A stretch of DNA of 64,000 bases from a virus: IMG/VR virus record IMGVR_UViG_3300032213_002832, positions 62,001-126,000 of that record; one strand, written 5' to 3'. The position numbers were made by a program, and so were the translations under genes. Below are positions 29,212 through 49,842 of the stretch, piece by piece (positions within the stretch are counted from its first letter, which is position 1; the number at the start of each line of letters is the position of its first letter). Below the pieces are notes generated by a model, which had not been told where the DNA came from, searched no databases, and was given only the letters and a program-made list of their open reading frames with translations.

Positions 29212-29222
29212 ATTATACCACA
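29212..29222 (-). promoter_or_regulatory. Extended -10 promoter (TGTGGTATAAT)
   Basis: On the minus strand TGTGGTATAAT lies about 40 bases before the TTG start of the zinc-finger gene. The same 11-mer precedes the tRNA. Confidence 0.7.
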
Positions 29223-29233
29223 GATAATAAGTA

Positions 29234-29282
29234 AGCCCTGGCATTTCTACCAGGGCTTTATTTTGCCAGAGTTTCCTCTGGC
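29234..29282 (-). terminator. Two tandem hairpins downstream of the tRNA
   Basis: The first hairpin is GCCAGAG-GAAA-CTCTGGC. The second is AGCCCTGG-loop-CCAGGGCT with AT-rich flank. They probably end or protect the tRNA transcript. The second could terminate in both directions. Confidence 0.65.
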
Positions 29283-29316: not shown

Positions 29317-29392
29317 TGGACGCGGGTGTGGGATGTGCGCCCACGATCTGAAGGTTATGAGCCTTCCGAGATAACTGCTACTCTAACCCGCA
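29317..29392 (-). tRNA. tRNA-Met/Ile2 (anticodon CAT) with encoded CCA and aberrant T-loop
   Basis: A 76-base cloverleaf: acceptor TGCGGGT/ACCCGCG (one T-G pair), short D arm, anticodon stem GAAGG/CCTTC with loop CTCATAA (anticodon CAT), T stem GTGGG/CCCAC, discriminator T and encoded CCA. The anticodon stem lacks the three G-C pairs of initiator tRNA, so it is an elongator Met or a lysidine-type Ile tRNA. The T loop reads CGCACAT instead of TTCRANY, and the D loop lacks the second conserved G. Confidence 0.8.
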
Positions 29393-29397
29393 CATTC

Positions 29398-29408
29398 ATT
29401 ATACCACA
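29398..29408 (-). promoter_or_regulatory. tRNA promoter (TGTGGTATAAT)
   Basis: An extended -10 ends six bases before the first base of the mature tRNA, so transcription should start at, or one base inside, the mature 5' end. Confidence 0.75.
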
Positions 29409-40405: not shown

Positions 40406-41809
40406 TTACTTAGCAGCTTCTATACGAGCTTCATCAAATGTACACTGGCTAAACTCCAAACCATTTCGGAATACTACTCTTAATTCATCTTGTTCTGAAT
40501 AATTGTAATTTTCTTTAACAGTGAGATATTTTTCATTACTAGGGTTTCGGTCATCCCATCCAGTCATTTTAATTAGTTTTAAACGACCTCGTTTACTATT
40601 CTTACTTGGATCTGTAGCTGGAGCCTTATAAACTTCTCGTTCTTCAACATAATTAACTACTATGCTGCTACATTTGAATGCGAATCGTTGTGTATCACGA
40701 TTAACTTGTTGTAGAAGAGCTCCACCACATCCAAATGCTACGTTATCAGCAGACCAACCAGCATTAGTCATAGCATCTAAAATACCAATAAGAGAATCGT
40801 AGTTAACGCCATCTCCCTGTATAACTCTTACTTGATCTGGCAATATCTTATATCCTTTAGCATTAATACTATAGCCAAAAGCATCTCCAAGCGCATTTAG
40901 AACTTCAACAACGATTTTTTCAGGGTTGCCAGAGTCAGGTCTCACTACAAGAGTACCTTTACGAGCTAATACTTTATCGCGTAATTTCTTACCCCAAATT
41001 TCTTTACAAGCATGAATTATGTCAAATGAGTCAGATACACAAGCAACCAATCCTTCTGGATATTGGTCTAACATGTTTTCCATAGCATCCGCTTCGCATT
41101 CTGGTCCCCAACTTGTTATTGTTGAGTGTTCAGAAGCCGGGATAGAGAATGCTGGCATGTCAGCATAATAGTATTTTTGTGCTAAAGTAATAGCAGCTAA
41201 AGTATCAGTACCCATAAAGTTAAGTAAATGAGCAGCTCCGCCAAGTCCAGCAGACTCAACACTAGATACACCACGAAATCCAAAATCATGAAGTTTAAAA
41301 GCAATTAAATCTGGGTTACCAGTCATTTTCAGATAACTAAGTATTACATCTTTCATGTGTCTAGATAGGGTCGCGACGGTAGTTGGATACCAAACATGTA
41401 ACAAAATAGTTTCTAGATAATTAGTTAACCAGAAACACTCTGGATCTGTATTCTCAACAGTGACAAGAACATTGCCTTCTTCTACTACAGTGCCTTCAGG
41501 AACTGCTTTGATGCGGACTGGTAACCTACCATCATGCTTATCTAGTATATGTTGCCATCCAGCTTTATTAAATAAGTTAGGGCCTAAGTGCTTAGCAAAG
41601 AAAGCATCTGCTTCATCTATCTTCTCTTGCGTTACAACTTTACCACTAAGGTAACGTCCAATAATATACTGTAATCCAAAGAAGGTTGTCTTTGTAAACT
41701 TCCCACCTTTGCGAGCTTCTAAGTATGAATATACTGAAGTAGTTCCAGGTGGATATTGCTTGAAATGAGTTGCCTTATAACTGTCCGTAAGTAGCATGAT
41801 GTTGTCCAT
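40406..41809 (-). CDS. nadV: Nicotinamide phosphoribosyltransferase (Nampt)
   Basis: A 467-residue enzyme making NMN from nicotinamide and PRPP. The N-terminus LLTDSYKATHFKQYP, FKLHDFGFRGVSS, ASEHSTITSWG (active-site His), RPDSGNP (catalytic Asp) and FGCGGALLQQVNRDT are the Nampt signatures. Length matches the family. It follows the NadM-Nudix gene in the same direction, completing a two-step route from nicotinamide to NAD. Phages with this pair can restore NAD drained by host defences. SD AAGGAG. Confidence 0.95.
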   Translation of the reverse strand: MDNIMLLTDSYKATHFKQYPPGTTSVYSYLEARKGGKFTKTTFFGLQYIIGRYLSGKVVTQEKIDEADAFFAKHLGPNLFNKAGWQHILDKHDGRLPVRIKAVPEGTVVEEGNVLVTVENTDPECFWLTNYLETILLHVWYPTTVATLSRHMKDVILSYLKMTGNPDLIAFKLHDFGFRGVSSVESAGLGGAAHLLNFMGTDTLAAITLAQKYYYADMPAFSIPASEHSTITSWGPECEADAMENMLDQYPEGLVACVSDSFDIIHACKEIWGKKLRDKVLARKGTLVVRPDSGNPEKIVVEVLNALGDAFGYSINAKGYKILPDQVRVIQGDGVNYDSLIGILDAMTNAGWSADNVAFGCGGALLQQVNRDTQRFAFKCSSIVVNYVEEREVYKAPATDPSKNSKRGRLKLIKMTGWDDRNPSNEKYLTVKENYNYSEQDELRVVFRNGLEFSQCTFDEARIEAAK

Positions 41810-41823
41810 AATATTCTCCTTGT

Positions 41824-41842
41824 TGAAGTCCGCAACCCGCAG
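41824..41842 (-). other. Hairpin between nadM-nudix and nadV
   Basis: AGTCTGC-GGGTT-GCGGACT forms a 7-bp stem just before the SD of nadV. It has no T-run, so it is more likely an RNA stability or translation element than a terminator. Confidence 0.4.
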
Positions 41843-41843
41843 A

Positions 41844-42875
41844 CTATAATTTGTTTGTGAAATAATTGATTATATGTAAGTGATCCTCATAGAATTCTGA
41901 CTCTTTAATAAATAAGTCTGCTATTGGAATCCATATCGCTCTTTCAGCATCGTCATCACCTTTAACTTGTGGAAGTTGTCCACCGTCAGGTAGTTTTACG
42001 CAAAAAGCATTAGTAATAGTACGACCACGTAGCGATCTACTCGGATTATCAAATACACGCTGGTCAACTATGTATTTCATTAATGTATCTTTTGGTACTA
42101 AGATACGAGTCTCTTCTTTGAGCTCACGAAATGCTGAGTCAATAATAGTTTCATTTTGGTTTACGAAGCCACCTGGAAGTGCTAGAAGCCCTTTACCAGG
42201 ATTAAACTTCCTACGAATAACTAGAACATGGGCGTTTTTAACTACTAGAACATCAGTAGTGACAAAGGTTACTGGATATGGTGCCATTGCCCACATGTCT
42301 TTATAATCTTTAATAAACTTCCACTCTTCAACTAAGTTAGTATATGTTGTAGTCTTTTCCCAATTTGTTAAATAATCTGTTACTTCTTTAGCTAAATTAT
42401 TGGTAAACTGAGGGTTGTTTTGAAAGTATAAGTTACGAATCTCAGTGGCATGTGTTACATTTCTAGCGATAGAGAGTTCTCGTTTCCAACTCTCTGGAAG
42501 AGCATCTAGATACCAAGAGCTCTCATCTTTATTAGAACCTAATACGCATATGCTTGAAGTTTCCACATTATATATTTGATTCATTACTGAGTTATGTAAG
42601 TCAGTAAACCAAGCTGTATCATTATAGTAATAATCACGAACTTGTACAAAAATAAGTCGAGTATTTTCTAATTTAGAGAAACAAACTCTAACCATCTCTT
42701 CACGTTCTTGAGCATTCCAGGGGTTTTTAATGTTTGGGGCAGCACGATGTGAGCCAAGAGCAATAATTACATTATTGGCTAATTCTAATCCGCGCTTGAT
42801 TTGATTGATGTGTTCTTTGTGGGGTGGTTGGAGTCGGCCAATGAAAACCGCATAGTCATACTTATACTTATTCAT
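41844..42875 (-). CDS. nadM: Bifunctional NMN adenylyltransferase / Nudix hydrolase
   Basis: A 343-residue fusion. The N-terminal domain has GRLQPPHKEH (13-22) and the later SS-containing FVLGSNKDESSWYL region of NMN adenylyltransferase. The C-terminal domain has a complete Nudix box, GGFVNQNETIIDSAFRELKEETRI (about 235-258). Homologous bifunctional enzymes join ATP and NMN into NAD and hydrolyse ADP-ribose. It is transcribed with nadV and preceded by both a TGTGGTATAAT and a CCG-type element. Confidence 0.93.
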   Translation of the reverse strand: MNKYKYDYAVFIGRLQPPHKEHINQIKRGLELANNVIIALGSHRAAPNIKNPWNAQEREEMVRVCFSKLENTRLIFVQVRDYYYNDTAWFTDLHNSVMNQIYNVETSSICVLGSNKDESSWYLDALPESWKRELSIARNVTHATEIRNLYFQNNPQFTNNLAKEVTDYLTNWEKTTTYTNLVEEWKFIKDYKDMWAMAPYPVTFVTTDVLVVKNAHVLVIRRKFNPGKGLLALPGGFVNQNETIIDSAFRELKEETRILVPKDTLMKYIVDQRVFDNPSRSLRGRTITNAFCVKLPDGGQLPQVKGDDDAERAIWIPIADLFIKESEFYEDHLHIINYFTNKL

Positions 42876-43896: not shown

Positions 43897-46188
43897 TTAT
43901 ATTTTATTTTCCAATATGCCTTTAACAATATTCTCCACACTATCATTCTTATATGTAGTGATGTTGTCAAACTTTTCTTCCATATTTGGTAATACTAATT
44001 TCGTCTCAAATTCACCAATCACTCTAATTGCCGTTTCAGCATCTTTTATAGAGGGATGATTCTCTCTTGCTATGGCTCTTTCAGTACATATATCAGCCGG
44101 AACATCTAGAATTACAGCGGATACATCAGTGAGTTTAAAGTTCTTAGCTAAATCAAGCCAACTCTTTCTTTGTAGTACATCGAAGTTACAACGATCTATA
44201 ACAACATTCTTATTCTGCTTTATAGCTTCTACTGTAGCCTTCTTACAAGCATTACGTGATCCCAAATCATCTTGGTTCACACGCACATATCCATGTTTCT
44301 CAAGCTCTGTTGCCACGGTAGATTTACCAGAACCAGGTAGGCCAACAAGTATGATCATCTTAGATTTACTTGTATTATTACTTTTATTGTTATTATTATA
44401 ATAATACATTATGTCATCACCAAACTTACCCCACTCTTTTGGTCCCATATCAAGTTCTGCTTGTAATAACTCTTTAGTCACAAGCTGATCTTCAGAGAGA
44501 ATCTTCTTTACAGCCTCATCTACTCTGCCCTGCATAGTAGCATCAAAATTCTGCCAATGAACTTCCTCTATATCTGAAGGTTTTATCTTATAAAGAGTCC
44601 TATTAATAACGTCACAATTCTCATCTAATAAATACATTACTTTGCCTTCTACAGCAAAATGTTCATATTCATACTTATGAGGTAAATTCTTAAACTTACG
44701 GTATATTAAGTTACTATTTAAATCTTCAAGTTGATGTTGCTTACATTTAGCTACCACATCAATAGGTGCTGAAAAGCAATTAATGTCATCCTCTGCGAAT
44801 ATAACAGGTCGTATAGCACCATTATCGGTAATAACAAATAGTGGTTTTAAATCTATATCAAAATTATATTCAACTAAATGTGGCTCTTTTTTACCACACA
44901 ATTCAGCAGATACAGCACTTACATGGTGGTATTCTAATAACTGTGTTATCTTTTGTACTGTCTCTTCATTATTTAACAATACTTCTCTAGTTAAAGATAA
45001 GAAATTACCCATAGGAGAGTCGCCTAAGAATGGTCTACCTTTAGATTTAGCTGTAACAAACACTGTATTCTCAGCATCAGTATACTTATAGAATAATACA
45101 TTCATACCATTCCACTTTTCAGCGAAGTATACATATTTATAATCTTTTATATCCATGTACTCTTTAGATCCATATGTTTTATATGGATATGCCAGTTTAG
45201 GAGTACCATGTACAAGCTGTTGCTTAACAACTATACCATTCACATGAGTAATTAGCAATGAACCCTGCATTAACCCTTTTTCACGACATATAATTCCACT
45301 CACATGATTGCTTTTATTAAACGGATCTTCCATGGTAAATTTATCAGTGAATTTAATATTACATCCAAACAGTTTAGCAGCTATTGCTCGGTACTTATCT
45401 AGTTCACTAGTAGGTACCGCACTTTGCTCTAAGCACTTAATTTCTTTAAAAGGTTGCCCATGCTTAGCTCTTAATACATCTACTGTACCAGTAGAGAAGA
45501 AGCAACCATTAATAACTTTATCATCAGTTAAACCAGCGCTTGTGTCATACCACTTCCATAAAATACCGTCAACTGCTCCAGGTTCTTGGCCAGCAGTACA
45601 GTGAACATGGCCAGACATGTAGGCCTTGATTCCAGCCGCACCTATAAGTTCTGCTGTAGATACACTCTGTGGATAATGTCCTATCAATACTGGAATAGGG
45701 TTTTTAAGTGATTTAGACTGATGAACCACATCTTTAGCGAAGTCCACTATATTCTTATTAACTTTTTCCATATCTTCTGTTTTTAAAGAGTGATCTGAAT
45801 AGCAGCCAATAACATATGGGCCTAATTGCATTATTTCATTTTCACCAATTATATGTAACCTAGGTACATTTAAGCTAAGTTTTAGCTCTCCAACTCTCCA
45901 TGATGCGTCGTGATTTCCACGACATACAACTATATGACCTAATATATTAGCTCTAAGCCAGTTTAATGAATTAAATACTGAACGCCCGTACATATCATGA
46001 GTAATGTCACCAGTAATAAAAGTGATATCGTTTTCACTTATATTTTCTTTAGCAAAGTCTGCTATAGCTTCTAAGTAATTAACAAAAGTCCATGAACCAA
46101 TAGCCCACCTACGCTCATGCATCTTTTTAATAGGCTGCATGTTCTCATCCATGGAGAGGTGGGTATCTGAAATATGCCAAATTTTCAT
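43897..46188 (-). CDS. Three-domain RNA-repair enzyme: phosphatase, ligase and polynucleotide kinase
   Basis: A 763-residue protein with three domains. (1) Calcineurin-like phosphoesterase, about 1-200: HISDTHLS, TGDITHD, CRGNHD, GHYPQS, SGHVH. (2) Nucleotidyltransferase ligase, about 330-560: FAEKWNGMN gives the adenylated Lys near 357 (KxxG), AELCGKKEP, HFAVEGKVM and YKIKP as later motifs. (3) Polynucleotide kinase, about 605-763: GLPGSGKST P-loop near 615 and VIDRCNF. The activities match bacterial Pnkp, which heals and seals broken RNA, but the domain order is different (Pnkp runs kinase-phosphatase-ligase). It is a plausible counter to tRNA-cleaving defences. Confidence 0.85.
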   Translation of the reverse strand: MKIWHISDTHLSMDENMQPIKKMHERRWAIGSWTFVNYLEAIADFAKENISENDITFITGDITHDMYGRSVFNSLNWLRANILGHIVVCRGNHDASWRVGELKLSLNVPRLHIIGENEIMQLGPYVIGCYSDHSLKTEDMEKVNKNIVDFAKDVVHQSKSLKNPIPVLIGHYPQSVSTAELIGAAGIKAYMSGHVHCTAGQEPGAVDGILWKWYDTSAGLTDDKVINGCFFSTGTVDVLRAKHGQPFKEIKCLEQSAVPTSELDKYRAIAAKLFGCNIKFTDKFTMEDPFNKSNHVSGIICREKGLMQGSLLITHVNGIVVKQQLVHGTPKLAYPYKTYGSKEYMDIKDYKYVYFAEKWNGMNVLFYKYTDAENTVFVTAKSKGRPFLGDSPMGNFLSLTREVLLNNEETVQKITQLLEYHHVSAVSAELCGKKEPHLVEYNFDIDLKPLFVITDNGAIRPVIFAEDDINCFSAPIDVVAKCKQHQLEDLNSNLIYRKFKNLPHKYEYEHFAVEGKVMYLLDENCDVINRTLYKIKPSDIEEVHWQNFDATMQGRVDEAVKKILSEDQLVTKELLQAELDMGPKEWGKFGDDIMYYYNNNNKSNNTSKSKMIILVGLPGSGKSTVATELEKHGYVRVNQDDLGSRNACKKATVEAIKQNKNVVIDRCNFDVLQRKSWLDLAKNFKLTDVSAVILDVPADICTERAIARENHPSIKDAETAIRVIGEFETKLVLPNMEEKFDNITTYKNDSVENIVKGILENKI

Positions 46189-46199
46189 ACTAATCCTTT

Positions 46200-46493
46200 T
46201 TATACGTCACTGTATTCAAACTCTTTACTACCACTATGAGAAATGAGAGTGAGTTTTAAATGTTCGTATGGTAATATTTTCCATTCATAATCTAATAACT
46301 GAAGTTTATCATCTTTATAAAGATCCGTAAGTACTCTATGTATAGCAGAGGAATGCATGCTAGAATGAGATTTAAGTATCACATTTATAGAGTCTTGTGT
46401 AATCAGTTTATCTTGTTTAAGATGATTTAGCATAGCAGTCTTGCAATCCATCAGCTCAAATAATCTATTTAGAAACTCTACCTTCTTATTCAT
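46200..46493 (-). CDS. Small helical protein, winged-helix-like
   Basis: About 97 residues from the ATG best spaced to GGAG; another ATG directly precedes it. The pattern TQDSINVILKSHSSMHSSAIHRVLTDLYKDDKLQLLDYEWKILP, with two helices then a beta wing, could be a winged-helix DNA-binding domain. Assignment is tentative. It overlaps the small gene upstream. Confidence 0.55.
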   Translation of the reverse strand: MNKKVEFLNRLFELMDCKTAMLNHLKQDKLITQDSINVILKSHSSMHSSAIHRVLTDLYKDDKLQLLDYEWKILPYEHLKLTLISHSGSKEFEYSDV

Positions 46494-46665
46494 CATCAAT
46501 CTCCGAGTAATCAAGATTCCAGTAATACCAGCTAGAACAAAAAGCCTTAGCCCATCTGATAGCCTCGTCTTTTGTACCCTTGTATATAGGACCTATGCGA
46601 TAACCGCTTGGAGAAAATAAGCAATACCTATTTTTACTAATTGGCTTCAGCTTTATTTTTATCAT
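46486..46665 (-). CDS. Small conserved-looking protein (59 aa)
   Basis: A 59-codon frame, MIKIKLKPISKNRYCLFSPS then GYRIGPIYKGTKDEAIRWAKAF and a Trp/Tyr-rich end. The dense aromatic and Cys-Ser-Ser content looks like a compact beta-alpha domain. The stop overlaps the next start. Confidence 0.6.
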   Translation of the reverse strand: MIKIKLKPISKNRYCLFSPSGYRIGPIYKGTKDEAIRWAKAFCSSWYYWNLDYSEIDDE

Positions 46666-46690
46666 TACAACTCTTTAATAAGCCTAAAGC

Positions 46691-47806
46691 TTAGTGAAAA
46701 TCAGTGTTATCTCCAAGTAGATATTCATCACTAATTAATTTAAGCACCTTACGTCCTATGTGGCACTTTTCTTCTTTGATAGGACGGATCACTACACCTT
46801 CTATTACCTTTTGGCTTGGTACCATCACTGAGTTACCCTTAGTGAGCTCTTTAGCTTTGGCTGTATCGAAAGGTCCTTTATATAGTACTGGGACAGTTTC
46901 GAATCCGAGTTTAGAGCACAGAGATTCTACATAGCTTTGATCTGTAAAGCCATTTCCAACAATCATTGTATCGAATATTACTAGCTTACGCTCACCTTCT
47001 TTACAACCGTATGTATACCCTTTTTGGATACCAGAGCCGTATATCTCGCCATAAAAGACATGACCTTTAAGTCCTTCAGTCTTTTTCTTTAAATCATATT
47101 GAATAACAGCTGCTTCATATACGTTTCCAATACCCATTTTCTCATAATAATCTTTGTTAAAAGATGTTTTACTTTGAAGTTGTACTCTATTAGAGCCAAA
47201 CGCAAATTCATACTTAGGTAATAAGCCAAATAGTTTCTTTACTTTCTTGAAAAATGTATCAGCTACTGTTGGGACCCAGCCGAATCGGAAGTTGGTTCCA
47301 TGAACCTTTTCAGTAATGAAGACCTCTTCACCTTCTTGAAATAGATTTGGGTTATGTTTAAAGTTATCAAGTCCACCATATTCCGCAAAGTATGGGTTCT
47401 TGTTTTTCTTTGGAGCCGGGCTTCCAGTCATTGATGGAGGTGCTTCTGGTGGCTCAAACTTAGTGATACCTAATTGCTTAGTACAGTCATACCCTTCTTT
47501 TTCAGGTACTTTGAATACGCTACACTTGGCTAACATGCCTTGAGAAATACAGCCTCTTAGCTTAATTGTCTTTACACGAGATTTGCTAAGCTTAACTTTA
47601 GAATCAGGCGAGAATAGGACATCTTCTACTTCTTTAGAGAGTATAGAGTCAATCGGAATATAGATTGCTAAATCGCCTGCTACAAAAGCGCCTTTTTGAA
47701 TTACACATTGCCATCCAGCAATATGCGCCACCTCGAGGCGATCAGCATTTGGAACAGGACTTATACTACTTATCTTTACTACTTTAACTGAAAAATCTGA
47801 AGCCAT
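46691..47806 (-). CDS. RNA ligase, Rnl5 (DraRnl)-like
   Basis: A 371-residue ligase. Residues 1-110 form an N-terminal OB-like domain (SSISPVPNADRLEVAHIAGWQCV, tRNA-binding style). The adenylyltransferase domain has ITEKVHGTN (Lys167), HVFYGEIYGSGIQ, EGVVIRP and RKVLKLIS. This architecture matches the Deinococcus radiodurans RNA ligase family, which seals nicked RNA. It overlaps the DNA ligase stop (TAATG). With the three-domain enzyme it makes a repair cluster. Confidence 0.88.
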   Translation of the reverse strand: MASDFSVKVVKISSISPVPNADRLEVAHIAGWQCVIQKGAFVAGDLAIYIPIDSILSKEVEDVLFSPDSKVKLSKSRVKTIKLRGCISQGMLAKCSVFKVPEKEGYDCTKQLGITKFEPPEAPPSMTGSPAPKKNKNPYFAEYGGLDNFKHNPNLFQEGEEVFITEKVHGTNFRFGWVPTVADTFFKKVKKLFGLLPKYEFAFGSNRVQLQSKTSFNKDYYEKMGIGNVYEAAVIQYDLKKKTEGLKGHVFYGEIYGSGIQKGYTYGCKEGERKLVIFDTMIVGNGFTDQSYVESLCSKLGFETVPVLYKGPFDTAKAKELTKGNSVMVPSQKVIEGVVIRPIKEEKCHIGRKVLKLISDEYLLGDNTDFH

Positions 47807-49059: not shown

Positions 49060-49842
49060 TTAATGTTTTGATAAAAAAGCTTCTAAAGCACTTAGAGGTA
49101 CTAGCATAGCAAAAGCTCTAAGCTGACCCTCTACTAACGACATTACACCAACTACTTCACCATCTTCATTAAGAGCAGGCGATCCACTCTGTCCCTTATC
49201 AGCTAACGCGTCTGTGAACATAAAAGGTGCCGTGAGAACACATATTTGTTCATTTTTTATTGTTCCATCTTTTAATTTTATCGAAACGGTTTCAATTTTA
49301 TACTTTTTAGCTACGCAGAATTTTAGATCTTCTAGTGGATATTGGTTGGATATAAGAAAACGCCCACGATAATGTCCACTTGAAGAAGACAATAGTGGGA
49401 CAATAGGATATCCTACTATGGTGACTTTTGAGTCAATATAAACATCTTCAGCTAACTTAATAGATTTAAAATGAAAATCTTTTGGTACCTCAACAAGACA
49501 TAAATCGTGTTCACTATCAAGTTTGAGTGGTTTTACTTTAAATCGTGAATATTTTCGTAAAATATTATTCTCTCTATGAGAGACAATAAAGAGTGGTAGT
49601 AGGTTGTTTATTTCGCACACATGAGCATTAGTAATAATGACCTGTTTACCACTTTTTGTATTAGCGAGAAAGCCAGTACCACTGGATCCAGTGGTAACAT
49701 CTTCTAAAGATACGATTGATTCAGCATTTTGGTGTAAAACATTCTCTGATTCATGAATAGTTTTCTCGTGATCAATAATAGAAAAACTAGAAACCATGCC
49801 GAGTATTACCAGTAAACCTATTATCATTCGATTGTCCTTCAT
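49060..49842 (-). CDS. HtrA-like trypsin-family protease
   Basis: A 260-residue protein with an N-terminal membrane or signal segment (MIIGLLVILGMVSSFSII). Triad: His74 (ITNAHVC), Asp113 (EHDLCLVEV) and Ser219 (KGQSGSPALNEDGEVVGV). The fold and motifs are those of DegP/HtrA protease domains, but no PDZ domain is attached. It is predicted periplasmic. A separate anchored PDZ protein is encoded nearby. Confidence 0.9.
   Translation of the reverse strand: MKDNRMIIGLLVILGMVSSFSIIDHEKTIHESENVLHQNAESIVSLEDVTTGSSGTGFLANTKSGKQVIITNAHVCEINNLLPLFIVSHRENNILRKYSRFKVKPLKLDSEHDLCLVEVPKDFHFKSIKLAEDVYIDSKVTIVGYPIVPLLSSSSGHYRGRFLISNQYPLEDLKFCVAKKYKIETVSIKLKDGTIKNEQICVLTAPFMFTDALADKGQSGSPALNEDGEVVGVMSLVEGQLRAFAMLVPLSALEAFLSKH

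Follow-up and report, generated by a model that had tools for sequence, protein, structure and literature searches.

A phage tRNA(CAU), probably of initiator type, with a candidate A18/G55 elbow, and its covarying counterparts in phages and Patescibacteria

The tRNA gene and its surroundings

The stretch of DNA analysed here (the window, 64,000 nucleotides) comes from a phage record of 167,515 bases (positions 62001-126000) and carries a tRNA-Met(CAT) gene on its minus strand at 29392-29317. It is the sole tRNA called by ARAGORN in the whole 167.5-kb record, the seven stretches spanning the rest of which gave no further tRNA with this program. The gene reads TGCGGGT TA GAGT AGCAGTTA TCTC G GAAGG CTCATAA CCTTC AGATC GTGGG CGCACAT CCCAC ACCCGCG TCCA. 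It has acceptor, D, anticodon and T stems as well as the 3' CCA, which is encoded as part of TCCA; the acceptor stem consists of a T1-G72 wobble and six pairs, the anticodon and T stems are fully paired, and single-strand folding returned the cloverleaf, with a D stem of 3 bp. The first-pass annotation, which had described a CAT tRNA with intact stems and encoded CCA and had proposed covariance-model scoring as a check, is borne out; the gene scored 45.8 bits against a curated cut-off of 29 for RF00005 in a permissive Rfam run. With the Rfam default filters it was missed.

The departure from an ordinary tRNA lies in the elbow. The D loop AGCAGTTA (29372-29379, minus strand) was parsed as A14 G15 C16 A18 G19 T20 T20a A21, and the T loop CGCACAT (positions 54-60; 29333-29339, minus strand), read as C54 G55 C56 A57 C58 in its first five bases, is closed by a perfect 5-bp T stem, GTGGG/CCCAC. 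The T loop thus has no U54, U55 or A58, as claimed before; the second G said to be lost from the D loop is in fact G18, now A18, while G19 is kept. Excerpts of two reviews (PMC7912444, PMC4810234) describe the elbow as being held, throughout the domains of life, by the pairs G18-U55, U54-A58 and G19-C56. The window tRNA shares with the canonical form (G18-Psi55, G19-C56, U54-A58) the 7-base T loop, the closing G53-C61 pair, G19-C56 and purine 57, and differs from it in that both the 18/55 and the 54/58 combinations are swapped (A18 with G55, C54 with C58). Since all four bases are replaced, the sites of Gm18, m5U54, Psi55 and m1A58 are gone and none of these modifications can form.

An extended -10 element, TGGTATAAT (29398-29406, minus strand), ends six positions ahead of nucleotide 1 with five bases between, in agreement with the promoter position proposed earlier. 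No -35 consensus was found on the tRNA strand; TGNTATAAT sites number nine in the 64 kb, with 6.55 expected. The same 5-base gap to nucleotide 1 occurs in contigs L011 (TGCTATAAT) and L013 (TGTTAAAAT), and a good -10 at this distance was seen in these two and the window only, that is in 3 of 121 sequences examined. Within the approximately 9.5 kb of each contig compared, L011 had a match to just a single window ORF and L013 to none, so the common spacing is not obviously that of a single lineage. A second TGGTATAAT element of the same form is located at 29212-29220 (minus strand), upstream of the ORF 29173-28595.

Downstream of the tRNA, on the same strand, folding gave the hairpin GCCAGAG-GAAA-CTCTGGC (29265-29282), and an intrinsic-terminator-like hairpin of 11 pairs with a weak T tail follows at 29233-29258. 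Because of the latter, the tRNA is likely a single-gene unit. The usual distance from a -10 element permits starts at nucleotides 1-4. The -10 spacing kept in L011 and L013, together with the downstream hairpins, makes a predicted single-gene transcript starting at or beside nucleotide 1 plausible; if it started at G2, the first tRNA base would be absent. In the window the 5' leader (TGTGCG) could pair with the T loop (CGCACA), but L002, a phage contig described below, has no such pairing, and the idea was therefore dropped; the idea of the T loop as a second anticodon loop found no support.

That the gene is decaying, or that it has lost decoding and serves as a decoy, the latter as suggested earlier, seems very improbable. 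T73, the T1-G72 wobble and the position as a lone tRNA gene would suit such a fate, but the acceptor stem (one wobble apart), the anticodon and T stems are perfect, the anticodon loop is normal, the CCA is encoded, the gene has its own -10 element, and the covarying elbow is common to its relatives.

Other genes of the window, all on the minus strand, include a 763-aa metallophosphoesterase/PNK-like protein adjoining an RNA ligase (PHA02142 OB-fold and RNA_ligase), with a DNA ligase beyond (43897-47806), which is likely an RNA-repair cassette. At 40406-42875 a nicotinamide phosphoribosyltransferase adjoins a CTP_transf-like/NUDIX protein, likely a phage NAD salvage pair, and at 49060-49842 a phage-encoded trypsin-like protease (Trypsin_2) is found.

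Covariation of the D and T loops

ARAGORN was run on all collected loci except the window's own record and gave 994 tRNAs, which were reduced to 742 distinct ones by removing those with poor stems, those with no G53-C61 pair, and duplicates. In this set the D loop carries AG in 118 of 121 tRNAs with G55, whereas among the 612 with T55 it carries GG in 588 and AG without GG in 4. Under a stricter rule the numbers were 109 of 121 for G55 and 3 of 612 for T55 (109/12 vs 3/609; Fisher p 8.7e-112, a value that is indicative only, the related sequences being non-independent). G55 is present in 20 isotypes. Within the G55 set, 39 tRNAs have T loops that no search pattern targeted, and 37 of them carry AG, therefore the covariation was not produced by the searches. 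A separate parse, based on perfect anticodon and T stems, found AG in the D core of 126 out of 130 G55 cloverleaves; the other four have short D regions in which AG is present too by eye. By the same parse, 336 canonical TTCRA cloverleaves had GG in 335 cases and AG in one.

Because base 18 follows base 55 across the 742 tRNAs, the canonical G18-U55 contact appears to be replaced by a covarying A18/G55 pair, whose two bases would touch each other directly. The 54/58 combinations in the 130 G55 cloverleaves were TA (88), CC (23), AT (13), CA (4) and AA (2). The window belongs to the CC class, for which a direct C54-C58 contact is likewise suggested by covariation. The first-pass view of a specialised decoder with an aberrant T loop is partly right: an intact and specialised tRNA is supported, while the word aberrant is not, because many phage tRNAs, spread over about 20 isotypes, show covarying D and T loops.

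Other non-canonical tRNAs, tRNA-Pyl among them, also depart from G18, G19 and TPsiC, as an excerpt of PMC7609411 describes; in tRNA-Pyl, however, G19 and C56 are missing and the D loop is small, whereas the window tRNA keeps both bases and shows a covarying swap found in many isotypes. We found no description of a natural A18/G55 elbow in the literature covered, which dealt with variants of the elbow or T loop, cleavage in the T loop, phage tRNAs in defence, tRNAs of Patescibacteria, leaderless tRNAs, tRNA-targeting defences, and TruB or uL1 in Patescibacteria, most subscription papers lying outside this coverage. Variants of the D and T loops of suppressor tRNAs have reportedly been explored by combinatorial methods in earlier work.

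As for identity, bacterial initiators are marked by a weak or unpaired 1-72, A11-U24 and three G-C pairs at 29-31/39-41. The window tRNA has the T1-G72 wobble and A11-T24, and in place of the three G-C pairs A29-T41, G30-C40 and G31-C39. The full set is present in only 1 of 38 alternative-elbow CAT tRNAs and 2 of 35 canonical ones. A 1-72 mismatch was noticed in 21 of the 38 alternative-elbow CAT tRNAs, as compared with 2 of 92 alternative-elbow tRNAs with other anticodons, and A11-T24 in 21/33 as compared with 4/92; G30-C40 occurs in 33/38. These features mark initiators, which suggests that most of the alternative-elbow CAT group is of initiator type. The window tRNA resembles bacterial tRNA-fMet in its CAU anticodon, A11-U24, G30-C40 and overall body, and possibly, through the T1-G72 wobble, in a weak 1-72; it differs from it in the elbow (A18/G55 with C54/C58), in A29-T41 and in T73. 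The last is unusual also within the group, where A73 prevails (30/38), and both T73 and T1-G72 are atypical of Met tRNA; these two features, and the incomplete G-C pairs of the anticodon stem (A29-T41), count against the reading we prefer.

Distribution in phages and cellular genomes

Viral contigs were scanned with a pattern composed of the CAT anticodon loop followed by the T arm of the window tRNA. This gave 12 contigs with CAT and CGCACAT, all 12 with a tRNA-like cloverleaf, five of them (L002, L003, L005, L006 and L007) with one identical tRNA sequence. The window T loop is therefore not a chance product, since cloverleaves carrying CGCACAT recur in unrelated phage contigs. With any anticodon allowed, CGCACAT was met in 96 stretches, most of which were dropped by the stem filter used to discard chance matches of pattern scans; the loop also occurs with anticodons ACG, TCT, CCT, GAT, TTC and GTG. 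Relaxed loop patterns added CGCRCNN forms, and the matches listed include a Trp tRNA with a loosened alternative loop (L352). Annotated phage tRNA-Met relatives have mostly the canonical elbow, so the loop is unexplained by close BLAST relatives.

The milder loop TGCAAAT, which is the canonical T loop altered at position 55 only, gave at least 177 pattern matches (one tRNA may count more than once), with all 17 stem pairs formed in at least 35 and 16 pairs in at least 19; among the matches listed, the isotypes include Cys, Met, Thr, Arg, Glu, Trp, Gln, His and Leu. In Erwinia phage Cronus one tRNA-Met has the T loop TGCAACT and the D loop AGTAGTA, and the human faecal phage record MT835469 combines TGCAAAT with the D loop AGTAGTTA. 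All eight T4 tRNAs are canonical, with the alternative elbow in none. Most phage tRNA clusters contain few members with the alternative elbow, their neighbouring tRNAs being mostly canonical, which is a point against the preferred reading. One 83-kb viral contig (L444) has it in 12 of 13 parsed tRNAs. We also observed CAT tRNA-like genes with a 13-base D region, no normal D stem and AG kept (L002, L004, L153 and L428); these short-D forms in L002 and L004 are not called by ARAGORN.

A scan of species-level genomes for CAT tRNAs with CGCACAT gave 32 stretches and a single structural match, in L121 (Paceibacterota). In a phylum sample of 286 genomes, which we take to be Patescibacteria, the phylum of L121, the TGCAAAT pattern occurs in 26; of its 28 places, 25 are sound tRNA-Cys or CAT tRNA genes, located chromosomally in 23 genomes, and 24 of these 25 carry AG, the exception being L548. 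Alternative-elbow tRNA-Cys(GCA) and tRNA(CAT) genes were recorded in the Patescibacteria genomes L542-L569. Three other phyla contain the pattern in 8/299, 8/299 and 9/296 genomes, at 26 places none of which folds as a tRNA, which puts the mild form at 0 of 894 genomes by this pattern.

The distribution bears on two further explanations. In one, related to the tRNase resistance proposed earlier, the altered elbow would shield phage tRNAs against cleavage or binding by host enzymes that act on the canonical T loop or elbow. Excerpts of the relevant papers describe a T-loop tRNase, CdiA-CT of strain E479, whose cut falls between the conserved T and the Psi (PMC9086364), and show that Cas12a3 touches the T-arm backbone (PMC12851939), and that anticodon-loop changes in phage tRNAs counter nucleases (PMC10264068); the PNK/phosphatase-like and RNA ligase genes of the window fit as well. 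The nuclease-evading tRNAs, as far as the excerpt of PMC10264068 describes them, are comparable in being phage tRNAs changed where host enzymes act, but there the change is in the anticodon loop, while here it is in the elbow and may serve evasion. We regard this explanation as unlikely, though the strongest of the rivals: the alternative elbow is chromosomal in 23/286 Patescibacteria genomes, in tRNA-Cys and tRNA-Met, only some tRNAs per cluster are altered in most phages, and no elbow-targeting phage defence was identified in this analysis. According to the other, A18/G55 would be equal to G18/U55 and nearly neutral, so that tRNAs of phages and reduced genomes drift between both. Mixed clusters are indeed common, and many isotypes and several 54-58 combinations are involved. 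The switch, however, needs two changes, few intermediates are seen (T55 with AG but lacking GG in 4/612, G55 lacking AG in 3/121), and the form is absent from the 894 genomes of the other three phyla by the pattern used, which leaves drift improbable.

The Psi55 synthase TruB was scored by a TruB_N (PF01509) search that covered all 23 carriers plus 106 of the 262 remaining sample genomes; control genomes were positive in 14 of 14 cases, E. coli included. The genome of L121, in which TruB is present, belongs to neither comparison group. TruB was found in 6/23 carriers and in 75/106 others (Fisher p 1e-4, uncorrected for kinship and genome incompleteness; 3e-4 with the L121 genome counted among the carriers). 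The six carriers that do have TruB count against a link with this enzyme. The host genus of Erwinia phage Cronus presumably has TruB too, which counts against the preferred reading.

A possible second elbow and its meaning

The reading that we prefer, with a probability of roughly 0.55, is that the window gene encodes a working phage tRNA(CAU) of the initiator type, expressed alone from its own promoter and having an alternative elbow composed of A18/G55 and C54/C58. In such a molecule A18 with G55 would stand in for G18 with Psi55, and C54 with C58 for U54 with A58, with G19-C56 and purine 57 retained. The elbow might then close without TruB, TrmA or other modification, and the tRNA would be usable at once in the infected cell, or in cells that lack TruB, and may serve in translation initiation. 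In our view the alternative elbow is most likely of use to tRNAs that have to function without modification, either because a phage makes its tRNAs fast or because TruB is absent from the cell. More tentatively, and at somewhat under even odds, the data suggest a second natural elbow, built on an A18-G55 tertiary pair, whether or not C54-C58 accompanies it, with no need for Psi55, which would have arisen in about 20 phage isotypes and in Patescibacteria tending to be without TruB, and would bypass the elbow modification machinery.

Some phage tRNAs are missed or mis-scored by standard tRNA finders, as were those of L002 and L004 by ARAGORN and the window gene by the Rfam default filters. Excerpts of reviews present G18-Psi55 and U54-A58 as nearly universal in tRNA; the tRNAs gathered here form a large natural set in which the two are replaced together. 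The alternative-elbow set would offer a design principle for orthogonal tRNAs and would allow the reason for elbow modification in cells to be tested directly.
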